A stretch of 39,171 nt of DNA. It comes from Anaerocolumna aminovalerica (GTDB lineage Bacteria > Bacillota > Clostridia > Lachnospirales > Lachnospiraceae). The notes below the pieces were generated by a model. That model worked only from the letters and a program-made list of their open reading frames with translations. It had not been told where the DNA came from and did no database searches. Below are positions 31,065 through 37,924 of this stretch, piece after piece. Position 1 is the stretch's first letter. The number at the start of each line of letters is the position of its first letter. A program made the position numbers and the translations under genes. Location of the stretch: the NCBI RefSeq assembly GCF_900115365.1, contig NZ_FOWD01000037.1:1-39171 (forward strand), written 5' to 3'.

Positions 31065-31457
31065 TTGGCTAAGGCAAGATATTACGGAACAGGAAGAAGA
31101 AAAAGCAGTATCGCGAGAGTATATTTAGTACCAGGAACTGGTAAAGTTGTTATAAATAAAAGAGATATGGATGAATATTTCGGTTTAGAAACATTGAAAT
31201 TAATCGTTCGTCAACCACTTGTATTAACTGATACAGTTGATAAGTTTGACGTTCTTGTTAATGTACATGGTGGCGGATTCACTGGTCAAGCTGGTGCAAT
31301 CAGACATGGTATCTCCAGAGCATTATTACATGCTGATGCAGATTATCGTCCTACTTTAAAGAAAGCAGGATTCTTAACAAGAGATCCAAGAATGAAGGAA
31401 AGAAAGAAGTACGGCTTAAAAGCAGCTCGTCGTGCTCCTCAGTTCTCCAAGAGATAA
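31065..31457 (+). CDS. rpsI: 30S ribosomal protein S9
   Basis: The 130-residue protein starts [20 protein letters not shown] and has [20 protein letters not shown] and the C-terminal [14 protein letters not shown] tail that touches P-site tRNA. The start codon is TTG with AAAGGAGG 7-8 nt upstream. Followed by a strong terminator. Confidence 0.98.
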
Positions 31458-31470
31458 TAAGAATAATTAT

Positions 31471-31506
31471 AAAAGCCTTGAAATTTCAACGTTTCAAGGC
31501 TTTTTT
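31471..31506 (+). terminator. Intrinsic terminator after rpsI
   Basis: Perfect stem AAAAGCCTTGAAA/TTTCAAGGCTTTT (31471-31483 with 31492-31504) plus a T-run, 13 bp after the rpsI stop codon. Confidence 0.95.
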
Positions 31507-31569
31507 GATGCTAAAAATATTATTGTTGTTGTGAATTTGTAGTGACTTTATATTTTGTTAATTTCAATT

Positions 31570-32323
31570 CTATAACCCAGCAGTTTTCTTTCTGGTAGAT
31601 GCAAGGACGTCAGTACATATATATGCTGCTACTCCTACGTCTGAATGGCCTAAGTGATCAAATACTATTTAATATCAACGCCACTGTTTAATAGGAGTGT
31701 AGCATTATAGTGGCGCAGGGAATGAAGTGTAAGGAAATTAAATCAGTTCCTTTGATGCGGTTACGGAAAGAAGTATTAAAGCTTCATCTGTCTTTATAGT
31801 TTCCGGTATCAGAATTAAAGAACATTTCCTGATGGATAAATGTATTCTATTTGAGTTATTTGCAGGTCCTAACTGGTGTTTCTTATGCTCTCTCAGGATT
31901 TTTTATTGAATCGATAATAGCTGCTTTTACTCCTTGAAGTGATAAGGAAGTGCTTACTGCTAACGTCTGATGTAGTGTTTTTATTGAAGCCTATGTCCTC
32001 CTATTGAAGCAACAAATATTTACCGAAGTGTATACCCGTAAACAGGAGCAGCTTTAAGATTGTATTGAGTATAGAATAATCCCGAAATAGATTAAAGGAT
32101 AGGAGTATCTCTATTTCAGTAGGTATTTATGTTTCACTTCTGTGGTAGCTTTCTTGGATGTGAGTATAACGTTTCTGGACAGGGGTTCTTTCATGTAGTC
32201 ATGAGTTGCTGTAAATGTGAATATACTTTGCATGATTGTGTATAACTTCTTTACATTGGCCTGTGACAGTGGAATTTCCTTCCTTTCTTTATTGAGGCTA
32301 GTATGGGTACTAGTTGTATGCAT
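31570..32323 (-). pseudogene. Decayed tyrosine recombinase (phage/ICE-type integrase)
   Basis: Reading the minus strand, pieces of an integrase are recognisable in different frames. At 32111-32323 there is a core-binding domain-like segment (PLSQANVKKLYTIMQSIFTF). At about 31668-31730 lies the catalytic box HSLRHYNATLLLNSGVDIK (HxLRH at 31710-31724). After a one-base frameshift and stop near 31665-31670, the segment HLGHSDVGVAAYI continues at about 31617-31656, then ASTRKKTAGL with a stop at 31570-31572. In the family, the LGH box and the nucleophile tyrosine follow. Several frameshifts and stops lie between the parts, so it is inactive. The upstream part, 32324-32796, shows no clear gene. 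It marks a former integration event beside the rplM-rpsI operon. Confidence 0.75.
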
Positions 32324-32796
32324 GAAAGGCTTTAACTTATTGAGACATAGATCTTAAAGTATTCCTCTGATACTCTTTTAACTTTTGCTCTCAGGCCGAC
32401 TAACCCTTACGTGACTTTTGAAGTCAACATATTTTCTTTAACAAATTTATATGATTTATCTTCTCTCATTCATTCTGGTAATGTAAATGTGGCAGTATAA
32501 ACAGACGTTTCATCAGAGCATTAATGAAACAGTAAACTCAATAAGGAATTTTAAAAGGTTTGTGGCTATTCTGTTTGTGATGATTTATTTCTTACTGCTG
32601 TAGCTACGAAGATTATAGGATTAGACAGTGATGACCCTGTCCCGCGCTTCCTTTTTACTTGTTTTGAATAAGGGATGCCGATTATAAGCTGTGAAGTGAT
32701 TTGAAGTATTCAGTAAGAAAGACTCTTGTATTTTTTAATACGTTGTTTCAATACTAGATCTAAGAACATACAGAGTAATTAAATAATGAAATATAT

Positions 32797-32825
32797 TTTA
32801 CTGTAAAAGTTATGTATGCTATAAT
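32797..32825 (+). promoter_or_regulatory. Promoter of the DUF262-HEPN pair
   Basis: An extended -10 (TG-C-TATAAT, hexamer at 32820-32825) has a fair -35 (TTTACT, 32797-32802) 17 bp upstream. The start site would be near 32832, which supports translation start at 32875 rather than at the ATG at 32812. Confidence 0.6.
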
Positions 32826-32874
32826 ATTATTAATAAATATATACGATCGAGTAAATAATACTATGGAGGATATT

Positions 32875-34086
32875 ATGTTATTTGAAAATGAAAAAATCGA
32901 GTTTGATGAAAAGAGTATAGGTATTATGAACATAGCAGATAATGAAATAAATGAGAAATATATTCTTGGTGAAGTACGAATAGTTACAGAACAAGCAAGA
33001 TATCCGCTAAACACAATAACAATGATGATTGATAGCAAAAATTATGAATTAAATCCGGATTTCCAAAGACGTAGGCGTTGGGATGATGTAAAGAAATCTA
33101 AGCTTATAGAATCATTTATAATGAATGTCCCCATACCTCCTGTTTTTTTATACGAAAATGAATTTTCTCATTACGAAGTAATGGATGGATTACAAAGATT
33201 GTCAACAATATATGATTTTTATAACGATTCTTTTAAACTTGTAGGTTTGCAATTATGGCCAGAATTAAATGGACGATATTATAGCAATTTACCTGAAAAA
33301 ATTAGAAAAGGAGTTGACCGTAGATATATATCATCTATTATTCTTTTACAAGAAAGCGCAAAGAGCAAGGAAGAAGCACAAGGTATGAAACAGCTTGTTT
33401 TTGAGAGAATTAATAGTGGTGGGGTTAAACTCGAGGGGCAGGAAACAAGAAATGCATTGTATAATGGTAAAATGAATCAGATGTGTCTCCAATTATCTCG
33501 TAATAAATATTTATGCGCAATGTTAGATATTCCGCACGAAGAACTAGAATTACAAATAAGTTTTATATACGATATAAATAGTCTATTACTACAAAATGAA
33601 CGGTATAAAAAAATGGAAGATGTAGAATATGTGTTGAGATTTTTTGCTATGCGCCAAATAGATGGTTACGCTAATAGAACTTTAAGTGAGTTTTTAGACA
33701 TGTATTTAAAAAAAACAAACTTTTACGATGATAGTACACTCAATTCACTGAGAGCATTATTTGAAGAAACAATTGAATTTGCTTTTGATTTATTTGGGAG
33801 CAGTGCTTTTTATATGTGGAGAAAAAGAAGTACAAATTATTCTGATGAGTCATGGAATTGGTTCTCTAGAGCCACTACTACAATATATGATCCATTAATG
33901 CATGTATTGTCAAAGATGATATATTCAAAAGATATACTCCTAAAGAATAAAGAGATAATACGAAACGAAGTAAAGAATTTTTATCAAGAAAATTATGATG
34001 CATTTGAAGGACGAAGTAGTAATAAGAATGATATTGAAAAGCGCATTGTATTATTTGAGAATTTCTTTAAATCTTATTTAGAGTAA
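32875..34086 (+). CDS. DUF262-domain protein (GmrS/ParB-like fold)
   Basis: The 403-residue protein has the hallmarks of the DUF262 family: PDFQRRRRWD (about 61-70), a KSKLIESFIMNVPIPPVFLY helix and strand, the DGLQRLSTI motif (about 104-112; the family usually has DGQQR), and the later FERINSGGVKLEGQETRNAL segment (about 177-196). DUF262 is the N-terminal nucleotide-hydrolysing, nuclease-linked half of GmrSD-type restriction enzymes and occurs in many defence operons. The DUF1524 HNH-nuclease half is absent. Start chosen at 32875 because TGGAGGA lies just before it. Only 20 bp separate it from a HEPN gene, so the two form one operon. More AT-rich than the ribosomal genes, and next to an integrase remnant. 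Confidence 0.85.
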   Translation: MLFENEKIEFDEKSIGIMNIADNEINEKYILGEVRIVTEQARYPLNTITMMIDSKNYELNPDFQRRRRWDDVKKSKLIESFIMNVPIPPVFLYENEFSHYEVMDGLQRLSTIYDFYNDSFKLVGLQLWPELNGRYYSNLPEKIRKGVDRRYISSIILLQESAKSKEEAQGMKQLVFERINSGGVKLEGQETRNALYNGKMNQMCLQLSRNKYLCAMLDIPHEELELQISFIYDINSLLLQNERYKKMEDVEYVLRFFAMRQIDGYANRTLSEFLDMYLKKTNFYDDSTLNSLRALFEETIEFAFDLFGSSAFYMWRKRSTNYSDESWNWFSRATTTIYDPLMHVLSKMIYSKDILLKNKEIIRNEVKNFYQENYDAFEGRSSNKNDIEKRIVLFENFFKSYLE

Positions 34087-34106
34087 ATTAGATAAAAGGA
34101 TTTAAT

Positions 34107-35153
34107 ATGAAAAGTACATTAGATGAATATTTAATAAAAATAGATAATCTTATAAATTATATTGATCAAACTCAGCACTTATATGAAGTGGTTAAAGAAA
34201 ATAGGGATTCTAAAATATCTTCTGAATTTGTAAAGTTTCATACTGATTTAAATAAAAGAACATATGATTACAATTTAGTTATAATAACACTGTATGGTAT
34301 TTGGGAAGGCTTTGTTGAGCAAATTGTTGCAGAGTATCTTAGCGAGCTAAATGACTGCGTAAATGAGTATAAAAATCTCCCAGAAGCCATAAAAGAAAAT
34401 CATGTAGGGATGTCAGCAGACTTACTTAAATATACAAATATATTAAGTAAATACGAGCATATTTTGATTAACGAAGTTATAGCAAATTTAAATAGTTGTT
34501 TGAATGGTAAGGAGAAGTATAAAATTAATGTTGATGCATTTACGTATCACAGTACTAATTTCAGAAAGGATGCAATAAGAGATTTTTTTAAAAACATTGG
34601 AGTTTTTAATATTACAAATACTATTACCAAGTCTAAAGCTATGGTAAACTTTTTTACTGAATATGACGGTGAATTGCTTAGTAATATGAAAAAATATCAA
34701 GAAAATAATTATTATGAATATTTAGAGGATTTAGTTGAAAGAAGAAATCAAATTGCACATGGGTCTGATATAGATGAATTGCTTTCGCTAGATATATTAA
34801 TAAATTATTCTCAATATGTAAAAGCTTTGATAATTTCTATTTATGAGATAATAGAATATGAATTATTTAAGAATAAATTTCATAATACCGAGAAGGTAGA
34901 ATTAGGTAAGCCAATTAAAGTTATTGACAGTAGTATTATTTGTATTAACAATAAACACTTAAATATAAAGACTAATGACTATATTTATGGATATAATATG
35001 GATTCAAAAGAGTTACGCTTTGGGCAAGTTTTATCTATTCAGATAAATAATGAAGCGGTAAATGAAACAAGTATTGAATGCGATGAAGCAGTGGGGTTAA
35101 AAGTGAATTTTAGTGCAAAAGATAAATATACTTATTTCTATTTATATAGTTAG
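34107..35153 (+). CDS. HEPN-family nuclease-like protein (MAE_28990/MAE_18760-like)
   Basis: This 348-residue, mostly helical protein contains the motif ERRNQIAHGS at about residues 211-220, i.e. an R-x4-H with Asn after Arg, the catalytic signature of HEPN ribonucleases. An N-terminal helical region (about 50-80, YNLVIITLYGIWEGFVEQIV) resembles the MAE_28990/MAE_18760 group of HEPN proteins, described as partners of DUF262 proteins. The last 80 residues form a beta-rich extra domain I do not recognise. It follows the DUF262 gene by 20 bp and shares its promoter. Likely role: RNA cleavage as effector of a defence or toxin-like module. The family call is from the motif and partner; activity is inferred. 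Confidence 0.75.
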   Translation: MKSTLDEYLIKIDNLINYIDQTQHLYEVVKENRDSKISSEFVKFHTDLNKRTYDYNLVIITLYGIWEGFVEQIVAEYLSELNDCVNEYKNLPEAIKENHVGMSADLLKYTNILSKYEHILINEVIANLNSCLNGKEKYKINVDAFTYHSTNFRKDAIRDFFKNIGVFNITNTITKSKAMVNFFTEYDGELLSNMKKYQENNYYEYLEDLVERRNQIAHGSDIDELLSLDILINYSQYVKALIISIYEIIEYELFKNKFHNTEKVELGKPIKVIDSSIICINNKHLNIKTNDYIYGYNMDSKELRFGQVLSIQINNEAVNETSIECDEAVGLKVNFSAKDKYTYFYLYS

Positions 35154-35370
35154 GTCATTTTATTGTTAAAAGATTGAATACATATATGTAATTCTAAAAC
35201 TCCATTATGCTTTAAAACTTTTCTTATACAATATAAAAATATTTGTATGTTGTGATGTTGCGTGAAAAGATACATAATATTTAAGATTTCAGTAAATAAA
35301 GAAAATATAAAAAGTTATAAGAATCAATATTATTACCCAAAGAGATAATTTGACAACTTTATATGGATTT

Positions 35371-35407
35371 AAAAGCCTTTGCAAATAATATATTTGCAAA
35401 GGCTTTT
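35371..35407. terminator. Intrinsic terminator after the HEPN gene
   Basis: Perfect 17-bp stem (35371-35387 with 35391-35407, AAAAGCCTTTGCAAATA) with a 3-nt loop and T/A ends on both strands. It ends the DUF262-HEPN operon; the 217 bp before it hold no gene. Confidence 0.85.
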
Positions 35408-35436
35408 AAGTTATCCTATTTTTGCTAAAAAACCTA

Positions 35437-35483
35437 TTGACAAATACACATAGCGATGCTATACTAATCATGTTTTAAACATG
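35437..35483 (+). promoter_or_regulatory. tetR-type promoter with palindromic operator
   Basis: TTGACA (35437-35442) and TATACT (35460-35465) lie 17 bp apart. At the expected start of transcription is a perfect 15-bp palindrome, CATGTTT-T-AAACATG (35469-35483), well placed for autorepression by the TetR-family product of the next gene. Confidence 0.8.
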
Positions 35484-35505
35484 TTTAATAGGGAGGGGAA
35501 TAACA

Positions 35506-36069
35506 TTGGGAAATAAAGAAACAAGAAATAGATTAATTGAAGTTACAAAACGATTGCTTACAGAGGGAAATAGCCTTGAAACACTTACAGCACGCCATAT
35601 TTCGTCTGAAGCAGGAGTAAATCTAGCAATGATAAACTATTGCTTTAAATCAAAAGATGAGTTACTTAAAATTGCCGTTGAAGAAATTGTCGCAACAGAA
35701 TTTTATAAATATGTAGATGTAAAGTCTGATAACAGTACTGCAAAAGAGCAGTTAAGAAATATACTCTATCATGTTTGTAAGGCAATGTTAAAGTATAGCA
35801 GTCTTACTAGGATGTCTATTCCGTATATTATGTTAAATGAGGAAATATCACTACCCTACGATATAATGCCATTTATCAAAAAGCACTATGAGGGTAAAAA
35901 AGACGAAACACAATGTAAGGTAATTGCCTTTCATATAGTTTATACCATGCAGCTGATTTTTTATCGGTCAAAGGATTTTTTTAAATATTCAGGCATTGAT
36001 GTTGATGACGAAGCAATGATGGAAGAGTTCCTTGATTCCCAGCTGGATCTGTTTTTAGGAAGGGAATAA
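35506..36069 (+). CDS. TetR/AcrR-family transcriptional regulator
   Basis: The 187-residue protein has an N-terminal helix-turn-helix (LTARHISSEAGVNLAMINYC, about 26-45, then FKSKDELL) typical of TetR proteins, and a helical C-terminal ligand/dimer domain. The start codon is TTG with GGGAGGGG 8 nt upstream. A palindrome over its promoter suggests autorepression. It is followed by a 59-residue two-helix membrane protein rather than an obvious efflux pump, so the regulated function may be that small protein or lie elsewhere. The ligand is unknown. Confidence 0.9.
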   Translation: MGNKETRNRLIEVTKRLLTEGNSLETLTARHISSEAGVNLAMINYCFKSKDELLKIAVEEIVATEFYKYVDVKSDNSTAKEQLRNILYHVCKAMLKYSSLTRMSIPYIMLNEEISLPYDIMPFIKKHYEGKKDETQCKVIAFHIVYTMQLIFYRSKDFFKYSGIDVDDEAMMEEFLDSQLDLFLGRE

Positions 36070-36210
36070 AATAAAACTACTTAAGAATATATTCTATTAC
36101 AGCTTTTAAATTTGAGATAACATCGCTGATAGAATTTGTAAAGAGTCCGGTATTATTTTGAATCATTAATAAATATATATTTTCAAATTAATTGAAAGGA
36201 GAGTAACTAC

Positions 36211-36390
36211 ATGGCAGTTTTATTAAAACTATTAGGTATTGTGTCAATTGTAATGTTAATATCTACAATTATTTGCGGACTATGGATAAAGTCCCATCCC
36301 CAAGAAGATATACAATTTCATTTTGTACTTTCACTTACAACAGTAATTATATCACTATTAACAATAGTGCTGTTTATGTTAAAAAAATAG
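36211..36390 (+). CDS. Small two-helix membrane protein
   Basis: The 59-residue protein has two hydrophobic helices: about 3-25 (LLKLLGIVSIVMLISTIICG) and about 39-57 (VLSLTTVIISLLTIVLFML), joined by a short polar loop WIKSHPQEDIQF. The start is supported by AAAGGAG 7-8 nt upstream. It lies 141 bp after the TetR gene in the same direction and before a terminator, so it is probably co-transcribed or co-regulated with it. I do not recognise the family; the size and topology resemble small membrane proteins that modulate transporters or envelope stress. Confidence 0.7.
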   Translation: MAVLLKLLGIVSIVMLISTIICGLWIKSHPQEDIQFHFVLSLTTVIISLLTIVLFMLKK

Positions 36391-36520
36391 GAAACAAACA
36401 CATATGTTGTATTTATTAGTCATTCTGTAGAATATGAAATAATAGCAGAGCATGTAGGGAACAAATGAGCCGGAAAGTGTTGAAATGGTGTGAATTTAAG
36501 CCGGAAATGAGTAAAAATAT

Positions 36521-36562
36521 AGGATGTTTTAATTGCTTCGGTAATTAGGAACATCCTTTTTT
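36521..36562 (+). terminator. Intrinsic terminator after the TetR/small protein genes
   Basis: The stem AGGATGTT..AATT/AATT..AACATCCT (36521-36553) with a GCTTCGGT loop and a TTTTTT tail forms a typical terminator. Confidence 0.85.
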
Positions 36563-36679
36563 GACTCTATAGATTTATCATTTCATGAAATTAATAATAT
36601 TATAAGGAAGTCAGAAATTGTGTAAGAGCACTATTATAAAATTAAAGATTATATGCTCAACATTTTGCCAGAAATGAGT
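36563..36679. other. Non-coding gap before the HTH-kinase gene
   Basis: No gene is seen between the terminator and the next promoter. A short CCGGAAA-containing stretch occurs twice just upstream (about 36470 and 36501). Confidence 0.35.
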
Positions 36680-36709: not shown

Positions 36710-36733
36710 AAAATTGATAGGAATGAGGTGATT

Positions 36734-37924
36734 GTGCTGAAGTATGTGAATGGAAAAGAAATTTTACCAGAGGAATTATTAGATGAGATTAGAAAATATG
36801 TGGAGGGGGTATACATATATATTCCTAAAAGTGATTCAAAGAAAAGTAAATGGGGAGAAAGAACCAATTATCATCGTGAAATGGAATTACGAAATCAACA
36901 TATATATGATAAATACCTTGAAGGTATTAAAATATCAGTAATATCGGAGCGTTATCACCTGTCTTCCCAGAGCGTAAGAAGAATTATTTCAACACAAAAG
37001 AGAAAAATGGAGAGAATAGTAATTATGATAGAAGAACTATTGAAAGAATGGAATATAGAGTGTACTCCTGTTCAGATATATCATTCAGCATGGAATATTG
37101 ACAATTCCTATGTTTTGAAGGTATATGATAATCCTAACGCATTACAAAGAAATATTGTAATGATGAAAACACTTCATGAAGCGGGAATCCCAGTTCCAAA
37201 GATTATGAAATTGCCGGATGGACGGGACTATTTAACATATAACGGAATTATGTATGTGCTTACTACAAAATTGAATGGAAAGAATATTGTCAACCTGAAT
37301 GAATGTGATGATATATGGTTTTTCGAGTTTGGTAGAATATTGGGGAAACTTCATCTTGCATTTCAGGAATGTGCTAAGAGTATAAGTTATTGGAATAGTA
37401 GTATGATTGAGGAAATGCAAGGTTGGGTACGTAGCAATTTACTGGAATTTAAGCCGGAGTATTTGAAGCCGGAAGATATAAAGAATTCTATTGATGAGTT
37501 GTCAGAACTTTATGATGATTTGCCAAAACAGTTAATTCATAGAGATGTCCATTTAGGAAACTTTTTGTTTGACAACGGAGTGTTTTCCGGATATATAGAT
37601 TTTGATTTAAGTCAAAGTAATATACGTATATTTGATTTATGTTACTTTTTATTAGGAATTCTTTTGGAAGAAGATAATAATCGTGTTGAAGAAGAAAAGT
37701 GGTATAAAATTATTCAACAGGTAATAAGAGGTTATGATTCTATTACAACATTAAGTGATATTGAAAAGAATGCTATTGTTTGTGTGATGAAGAATATCGA
37801 ATTATTATTTGTAGCATATTTTTTAGGGATAGGAGATGAAAAATTAGCAAAAGACTCCGCTGATTTATTTTCTTTTGTTAAGAAAAATGAGGATAAAATA
37901 CAGGATGTGGTTAAATTAGAGTAG
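36734..37924 (+). CDS. HTH (CD3324/Mor-like) - aminoglycoside phosphotransferase-like kinase fusion
   Basis: The 396-residue protein joins two parts. Residues about 1-90 (VLKYVNGKEILPEELLDEIR, a KWGERTNYHREMELRNQ stretch, then a helix-turn-helix ISERYHLSSQSVRRII) match the small CD3324-type proteins of clostridia, related to the Mor activator HTH. Residues about 110-390 are an aminoglycoside/choline-kinase-like phosphotransferase, with VLKVYDN (possible ATP-binding Lys), catalytic HRDVHLGNF (about 269-277) and metal-binding IDFD (about 288-291). Start at the GTG 36734 gives a start right at the HTH domain with GAGG upstream; a GTG at 36728 is possible. The substrate is unknown; it could modify a small molecule and sense or regulate its own gene. 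Not a standard resistance enzyme by appearance. Confidence 0.75.
   Translation: MLKYVNGKEILPEELLDEIRKYVEGVYIYIPKSDSKKSKWGERTNYHREMELRNQHIYDKYLEGIKISVISERYHLSSQSVRRIISTQKRKMERIVIMIEELLKEWNIECTPVQIYHSAWNIDNSYVLKVYDNPNALQRNIVMMKTLHEAGIPVPKIMKLPDGRDYLTYNGIMYVLTTKLNGKNIVNLNECDDIWFFEFGRILGKLHLAFQECAKSISYWNSSMIEEMQGWVRSNLLEFKPEYLKPEDIKNSIDELSELYDDLPKQLIHRDVHLGNFLFDNGVFSGYIDFDLSQSNIRIFDLCYFLLGILLEEDNNRVEEEKWYKIIQQVIRGYDSITTLSDIEKNAIVCVMKNIELLFVAYFLGIGDEKLAKDSADLFSFVKKNEDKIQDVVKLE

Follow-up and report, generated by a model that had tools for sequence, protein, structure and literature searches.

A widespread DUF262–HEPN gene pair with a predicted EF-Tu-domain-II-like barrel is a candidate anti-phage module

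The locus considered here raises the question of what a DUF262 protein without a nuclease half of its own might do in company with a HEPN protein encoded directly downstream. The window (the whole stretch of DNA analyzed, 39,171 nucleotides of Anaerocolumna aminovalerica contig NZ_FOWD01000037.1) carries such a pair, hereafter genes A and B (Table 1), which a first-pass annotation had put forward as a two-gene defense module. DUF262 systems without a DUF1524 nuclease (PD-T4-2, Menshen, and Dazbog) are known and little understood, as far as the relevant passages of PMC10952713 describe them. Our preferred reading, to which we give a probability of roughly one half, is that the pair is a mobile anti-phage module in which A would act as the gate and B as a translation-stopping RNase guided by its C-terminal barrel; a defense role as such is likely.

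Table 1. Features of the A-B locus and its surroundings, in window coordinates.
Feature	Position	Strand	Remarks
rpsI-like gene (taken to be ribosomal protein S9)	31065..31457	+	left border of variable region
Tyrosine integrase remnant	31668..32066	-	PF00589 E = 7.4e-5, below Pfam cut-off; nine stops inside
Candidate promoter upstream of A	32797..32825	+	TTTACT-17-TATAAT, TG extended; 10 of 12; consensus scan
Gene A	32875..34086	+	DUF262/GmrSD_N protein, 403 aa; ParB/Srx-fold N-domain and BrxU-like helical part
A residues 37-198, ParB/Srx-like domain	32983..33468	+	
A motif PDFQRRRRW (61-69)	33055..33081	+	P61, Q64, R65, R66, W69 invariant in 63/63 A proteins
A motif DGLQR (104-108)	33184..33198	+	D104, G105, Q107, R108 invariant in 63/63 A proteins
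Gene B	34107..35153	+	HEPN ribonuclease-type protein, 348 aa, C-terminal barrel; Pfam HEPN_RiboL-PSP 1.1e-24
B residues 1-260, helical HEPN domain	34107..34886	+	secondary structure of predicted model; Pfam match 55-250
B active-site motif RNQIAH (213-218)	34743..34760	+	R213, H218 invariant in 61/61
B residues 262-348, predicted EF-Tu-domain-II-like beta barrel	34890..35150	+	
Hairpin, possible terminator after B	35366..35412	+	20-pair stem, tail ATCCTATTTT

Gene A, whose start is preceded by GGAGG and whose homologues align from residue 1, matches GmrSD_N (DUF262) in Pfam at E = 3.7e-26 and has the ParB/Srx-like fold of that domain. Its initial description as a DUF262 protein with PDFQRRRRWD and DGLQRL motifs and without a DUF1524 HNH half held in each respect: open reading frame, family, and motif positions were confirmed, and Pfam found no DUF1524 nuclease half on A, B, or the three next genes to the right, so that the fused or adjacent half by which GmrSD type IV restriction enzymes are recognized is missing from the proteins scanned. 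The top match of A in PADLOC-DB is NsnA (E 2.8e-65, residues 22-402), which we take to be the Menshen gene, and PD-T4-2_A is matched at E 1.7e-33; NCBIfam gave no match for A and none for B. The run Q64-R65-R66 is invariant across the 63 aligned A proteins, and DGLQR is the counterpart of the DGQQR nucleotide motif of GmrSD, the role of which is described in the passages of PMC10952713 on that enzyme. The same source links the DUF262 domains of GmrSD, BrxU, and SspE to NTP binding and hydrolysis, and by analogy to DUF262 proteins of this kind A may be an NTP binder or hydrolyzer as well. That A itself cuts invading DNA, with B adding RNA cleavage, could be argued from a 2013 survey entry that calls the partner of MAE_28990 a ParB nuclease (Anantharaman et al. 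2013) and from the REase_II model of PADLOC, which matches 60 of 60 A proteins, if far more weakly than NsnA does. We consider it a distinctly improbable alternative, as no DUF1524 half was found in A and as it is DUF1524 that serves as the nuclease in BrxU and SspE, where the DUF262 part hydrolyzes NTP (PMC10952713, in its account of these two systems).

Gene B begins 20 bp behind A on the same plus strand, as had been read from the letters, and its RNQIAH motif, first recognized as an R-x4-H HEPN signature, lies within a helical domain that also matches HEPN profiles, which together place B in the HEPN superfamily (RiboL-PSP type). The suggestion that B is of the MAE_28990/MAE_18760 type was partly right: HEPN_MAE_28990 is matched at E = 2.6e-9, but RiboL-PSP is by profile the better match. 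Window B matches nothing in PADLOC-DB, even with hits allowed up to E 1. Only four residues (E67, N151, R213, and H218) are invariant among 61 aligned B proteins, none of which lacks the R-x4-H residues, and all 77 intact B proteins of the clade carry R-[N/H]-x-x-[A/S]-H. The predicted structure of B is confident overall (pLDDT 93.4, pTM 0.90) and helical over residues 1-260 (block-mean pLDDT about 93). When the whole protein was compared with known folds, no HEPN structure was among the matches listed, because these were filled by matches of the barrel; the HEPN fold therefore rests on the helical model and the Pfam matches. HEPN superfamily endoribonucleases act as dimers, as B would too. 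RNase activity of B likely follows from its conserved active site, by analogy to HEPN proteins with R-x4-H motifs, which are taken as metal-independent RNases in the pertinent part of PMC3710099.

The C-terminal domain of B had been called beta-rich and unrecognized, of which the first part stands and the second does not: the domain is confidently predicted to be a beta barrel like domain II of EF-Tu, and the fold matches listed for it are almost all translation GTPases, which handle RNA. This barrel is present in 77 of 77 intact B proteins of the clade and in 0 of 13 HEPN partners of other DUF262 proteins. Its sequence link to translation factors is weak, with a profile match at E 0.041 (to eIF5B) and an hhalign comparison with domain II that gave a probability of 4% over 43 columns; the score of 19.0 exceeded 100 of 100 column shuffles (shuffled maximum 14.4), and five of six single domain-II sequences scored 13.1 or less against the barrel. 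A common fold is no proof of tRNA binding, and the barrel might instead dock B to A or another protein, with no role in tRNA binding or translation. In favor of docking, the barrel was confined to partners of this A clade in the protein set compared, the distribution expected of a docking domain, and few of its residues are strongly conserved; against it, nearly all of the fold matches listed are the translation GTPases named above, and B is predicted to act on RNA. We regard docking as a serious contender, though one that falls short of even odds, and retain for the preferred reading a barrel that guides the RNase.

A pattern scan of 84,980 species genomes with the A alignment as query recovered 135 stretches encoding A relatives, of which the best 80 plus four viral (IMG/VR) contigs make up the 84 A-clade loci kept here; five of these run into a contig end (L045, L066, L067, L104, and L109), with the start of B visible in three. 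B or its remains lie directly 3' of A in all 79 uncut loci of this set, so that the proposal of a two-gene module is borne out by almost exceptionless co-inheritance: 73 have an intact B (300 aa or more), and in six (L064, L075, L080, L094, L095, and L103) B is broken or partly deleted, with remains present, next to an open A frame. Four of these six, all cyanobacterial (L064, L075, L080, and L095), have lost the middle or most of B, active site included, while A is open, and what is left of B at L075 and L095 is its two outer pieces, nearly joined end to end; the pattern suggests that the catalytic core of B was deleted repeatedly. Distance matrices of A and B agree closely over 77 pairs (r = 0.89, with at most 0.15 in 1000 permutations), and by sequence comparison the pair forms a clade of its own.

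A cyanobacterial order sampled with 195 genomes confirmed the pairing, with both genes in 36 genomes, A only in three, B only in none, and neither in 156. Here, the best 45 A places were counted as clade members and 13 weaker full-length ones as paralogues, a line drawn by hand. B lies downstream at 41 of the 45 clade places; the other four comprise one close to a contig end, two partial ones, and an intact one (G425), with neither B nor B remains found downstream of the last. Conversely, A precedes B in 42 of 43 B matches (two of which are pieces of a single gene), and at the remaining one a shortened A lies directly before B, so that no B without an A-like sequence was found in these 195 genomes at E 1e-20.

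Such tight linkage, the lack of B without A-like sequence at this threshold, and the recurrence of broken B beside an open A frame in six loci are also what one would expect of a type II toxin-antitoxin pair, with B as toxin, A as dedicated antitoxin, and maintenance of mobile elements as the main role. We nevertheless judge this unlikely. A is a 400-aa conserved protein with an NTP-binding fold and many invariant residues, unlike small antitoxins; its relatives adjoin ATPase-like genes or lack a HEPN partner, as do four of the five weaker paralogues opened in cyanobacteria; and some A genes are apparently broken beside an open B, namely in a Vibrio phage (read by eye) and in genome G365.

The clade is large, and ten phylum labels occur among the kept loci (nine rows of the A tree have none), some of which may be wrong because many come from metagenome bins; the sole Bdellovibrionota locus belongs to the five truncated at a contig end. 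The pair is also found on plasmids and on temperate-type phage genomes. Matches to A occur in 139 plasmid records, three of them at 46% identity or more among the 40 matches listed, and B is matched by the same three plasmid records and no others; in a Nostoc plasmid, B is split into two frames. Full-length B is present in three Vibrio phage records. In the one opened, B follows an A gene (52% identical) that has lost its C-terminus through an apparent frameshift, as read by eye, and the pair lies near a CI-type repressor gene and an integrase.

In the window, the dead integrase first noticed beside the pair has independent support besides the stop-ridden PF00589 remnant (Table 1): positions 31535-32312 are 72% identical to DNA of congener G505 that holds an intact 394-aa integrase-like ORF (named by this DNA match and by eye). 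In G505 this ORF is placed after the same rpsI-like gene, and G024, another congener, has a different one of 295 aa (by eye) at that place. The rpsI-like gene was found in most congeners searched, and the four congeners opened have other integrase-linked or unrelated DNA behind it. As differing integrase-like ORFs or their remains follow this gene, its 3' side (window 31458-36564; L147-L150) appears to have served repeatedly as an insertion site within the genus. Of 15 genus genomes searched at the DNA level (own included, several incomplete), 14 gave some match, but the A-B stretch matched the own genome only. At the level of the family, 299 genomes searched with B alone yielded one that contains it; distant copies may have been missed because B diverges quickly. 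The claim that one promoter and one terminator bracket exactly these two genes fared less well. Both sites exist, but promoter-like sites are no commoner than in shuffled sequence (22 found versus 27.0 expected), which makes the promoter claim weak, and the hairpin, strong and a fair candidate for a terminator, lies 213 bp beyond B. Further to the right, at 36728-37924, one ORF unusually fuses a Mor-like/HTH N-terminal part to an APH-family kinase part.

What A might respond to is suggested by the genes around the pair, which is linked in part to restriction-modification genes. In 16 of the 84 kept loci, a DNA methyltransferase of one of three families is encoded no more than 1 kb from the pair, at some loci with one gene between: N4/N6 methyltransferases in eight (two with identical A), seven of which also have a PD-(D/E)XK-like gene (by motif and eye); C5 methyltransferases in five, with a sixth member of the cluster 3.6 kb away; and a third methyltransferase-like family, recognized by motif, in three. 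For comparison, 86 neighbors within 300 bp (of 87 found; one that ran off its contig was excluded) were set against 86 drawn at random from 176 beyond 4.5 kb. By Pfam, the near set comprised nine N6_N4_Mtase and four C5 DNA_methylase members, one HaeIII-type endonuclease, and one RtcB, and neither methyltransferase family reached two members in the far set (among the 25 of 77 families listed), which gives 13 near versus an assumed 2 far (p = 0.0026). The methyltransferase label changes at least seven times on the A tree, so that the linkage, as read from this tree, arose by repeated gains or losses. It is not general, because 68 of the 84 loci lack all three families within 1 kb, and Pfam detected no methyltransferase in the three genes to the right of the window pair.

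Other neighbors are worth recording in their own right. RtcB-like genes (by motif) occur near the pair at L063:6365-7903, directly upstream on the same strand, and at L047:4028-5446; RtcB joins the kind of RNA ends that HEPN enzymes are thought to leave. Related proteins are encoded 17 and 56 bp downstream of B at L053:10293-11699 and L089:8041-9552, respectively, and are probably the two near neighbors that match Schlafen AlbA_2. At L039:7417-7911, a member of the PADLOC candidate defense family PDC-S70 lies 90 bp upstream of the A gene of the nearest relative, on the same strand.

The methyltransferase linkage invites comparison with PrrC, which acts when its restriction partner is defeated (PMC3710099, in the part concerned with this enzyme). 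A would then monitor DNA modification or a linked enzyme and free B once the first line of defense has fallen. This precedent, the 16 linked loci with their PD-(D/E)XK-like genes, the HaeIII-type endonuclease, and the repeated label changes all favor such a guard, but most loci, the window pair among them as far as scanned, lack the methyltransferase, and the related PD-T4-2 is described as protecting against T4 as a transferred two-gene system (relevant passages of PMC10952713 and PMC9519451). We therefore rate a dedicated guard of restriction-modification as somewhat unlikely and keep to the preferred reading of an anti-phage module, of which natural variants exist with and without a linked methyltransferase.

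Relatives of A outside the clade help to place the pair. In the same family as the window's genome, 29 weaker A homologues were retrieved; ten are followed by an R-x4-H protein, 16 by an ATPase-like protein, and three by neither, as judged by eye and by weak matches to B. Partner type agrees with A phylogeny on a tree of 52 rows, 19 of which belong to the clade: the barrel-HEPN rows, and likewise the ATPase rows, are set apart by a branch with SH-aLRT 100, and plain-HEPN partners are scattered. None of the 13 cyanobacterial paralogues of A has a clade-type B downstream, and of five opened one is followed by a 209-aa HEPN protein without barrel and four have no HEPN partner. DUF262 proteins thus go with exchangeable effectors, and the window pair belongs to one lineage that has an effector type of its own. 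Many DUF262 genes in the family of the window's genome have an ATPase-like gene directly behind them (judged by eye), an arrangement that resembles Menshen (L007, L009-L012, L014-L023, and L025). The DUF262 genes at L131, L132, and L139, in three cyanobacterial genomes, have no HEPN partner and share a similar chromosomal setting, with what is presumably a gyrA-like gene nearby, as if they had a housekeeping role.

Taken together, we infer the following course of events for the anti-phage module. A would be an NTP-binding regulator of ParB/Srx fold that holds B inactive and responds to invading DNA that is foreign or wrongly modified. Once released, B would act as a metal-independent HEPN endoribonuclease that cuts RNA and stops translation, with the barrel bringing it to tRNA or to RNA of the translation machinery; as B would halt translation, the infected cell would make no phage. 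The six loci with a broken B beside an open A fit a B that is costly to keep, but the cases of a broken A beside an open B sit badly with A as an essential restraint. A bolder version, which we think rather unlikely in full, is a widespread immune system in which a DUF262 NTPase that watches the modification state of DNA unleashes a HEPN RNase imitating a translation factor. The EF-Tu-like barrel would then grip the aminoacyl or acceptor end of tRNA or the factor site of the ribosome, so that DNA sensing would be converted into tRNA destruction. If the preferred reading is right, DNA sensing and translation shutdown would be connected by a further route, and the RNase target and the signal that wakes B would become testable with defined mutants; the clade offers a concrete handle in its predicted RNase and translation-factor-like barrel.

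Among known systems, PD-T4-2 is the closest in make-up, a DUF262 protein with a PF18735 HEPN protein (Vassallo et al. 2022; described in part of PMC10952713), the deletion of which in the native host raises T4 plaquing (PMC9519451, in the section on this system). The window pair shares this DUF262-plus-HEPN composition and its A matches PD-T4-2_A, but window B does not match PD-T4-2_B, and only 3 of 58 clade B proteins do so at E 0.01 (best 1.7e-4); that model is narrow, as it also fails to match the HEPN protein of two out of three pairs from Enterobacteriaceae plasmids, and with 168 positions is too short for the barrel. With Menshen, the pair shares NsnA as best PADLOC match of A, but the Menshen DUF262 gene pairs with a predicted OLD nuclease (PMC10952713, in its entry on Menshen) and window A with a HEPN protein; no OLD nuclease domain was found among the five window proteins scanned (the pair and the three genes that follow to its right), and DUF262 proteins with ATPase-like partners form a branch separate from the window clade. 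GmrSD, BrxU, and SspE differ in carrying a DUF1524 nuclease where the window pair has a separate HEPN protein. PrrC and RloC are likewise NTPase-gated HEPN nucleases, cutting tRNA, and PrrC sits with a restriction-modification system, but both have a fused ABC ATPase, with no barrel described in the pertinent part of PMC3710099, where the window has a separate DUF262 protein. The 2013 survey lists HEPN in operon with ParB for the RiboL-PSP-HEPN and MAE_28990 families, the latter also beside DNA methylases, as a table entry whose text gives no barrel, co-inheritance test, or mechanism, and notes a "novel beta rich domain" for MAE_18760 (Anantharaman et al. 2013). The first-pass annotation was thus right that DUF262 proteins were known to neighbor HEPN proteins, a pairing listed since 2013, but the view that a mechanism was out of sight needs the addition that the related PD-T4-2 is already a phage-tested defense, as far as these sources describe it. 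In the literature searched, we found no description of the barrel-bearing clade, its near-complete co-inheritance, or the identity of its barrel, nor any phage, RNase, or NTPase assay for it. The general pairing of DUF262 and HEPN is therefore established, and what is new is the barrel-bearing clade, its near-complete co-inheritance, the predicted fold of the barrel, and the repeated linkage to methyltransferases.
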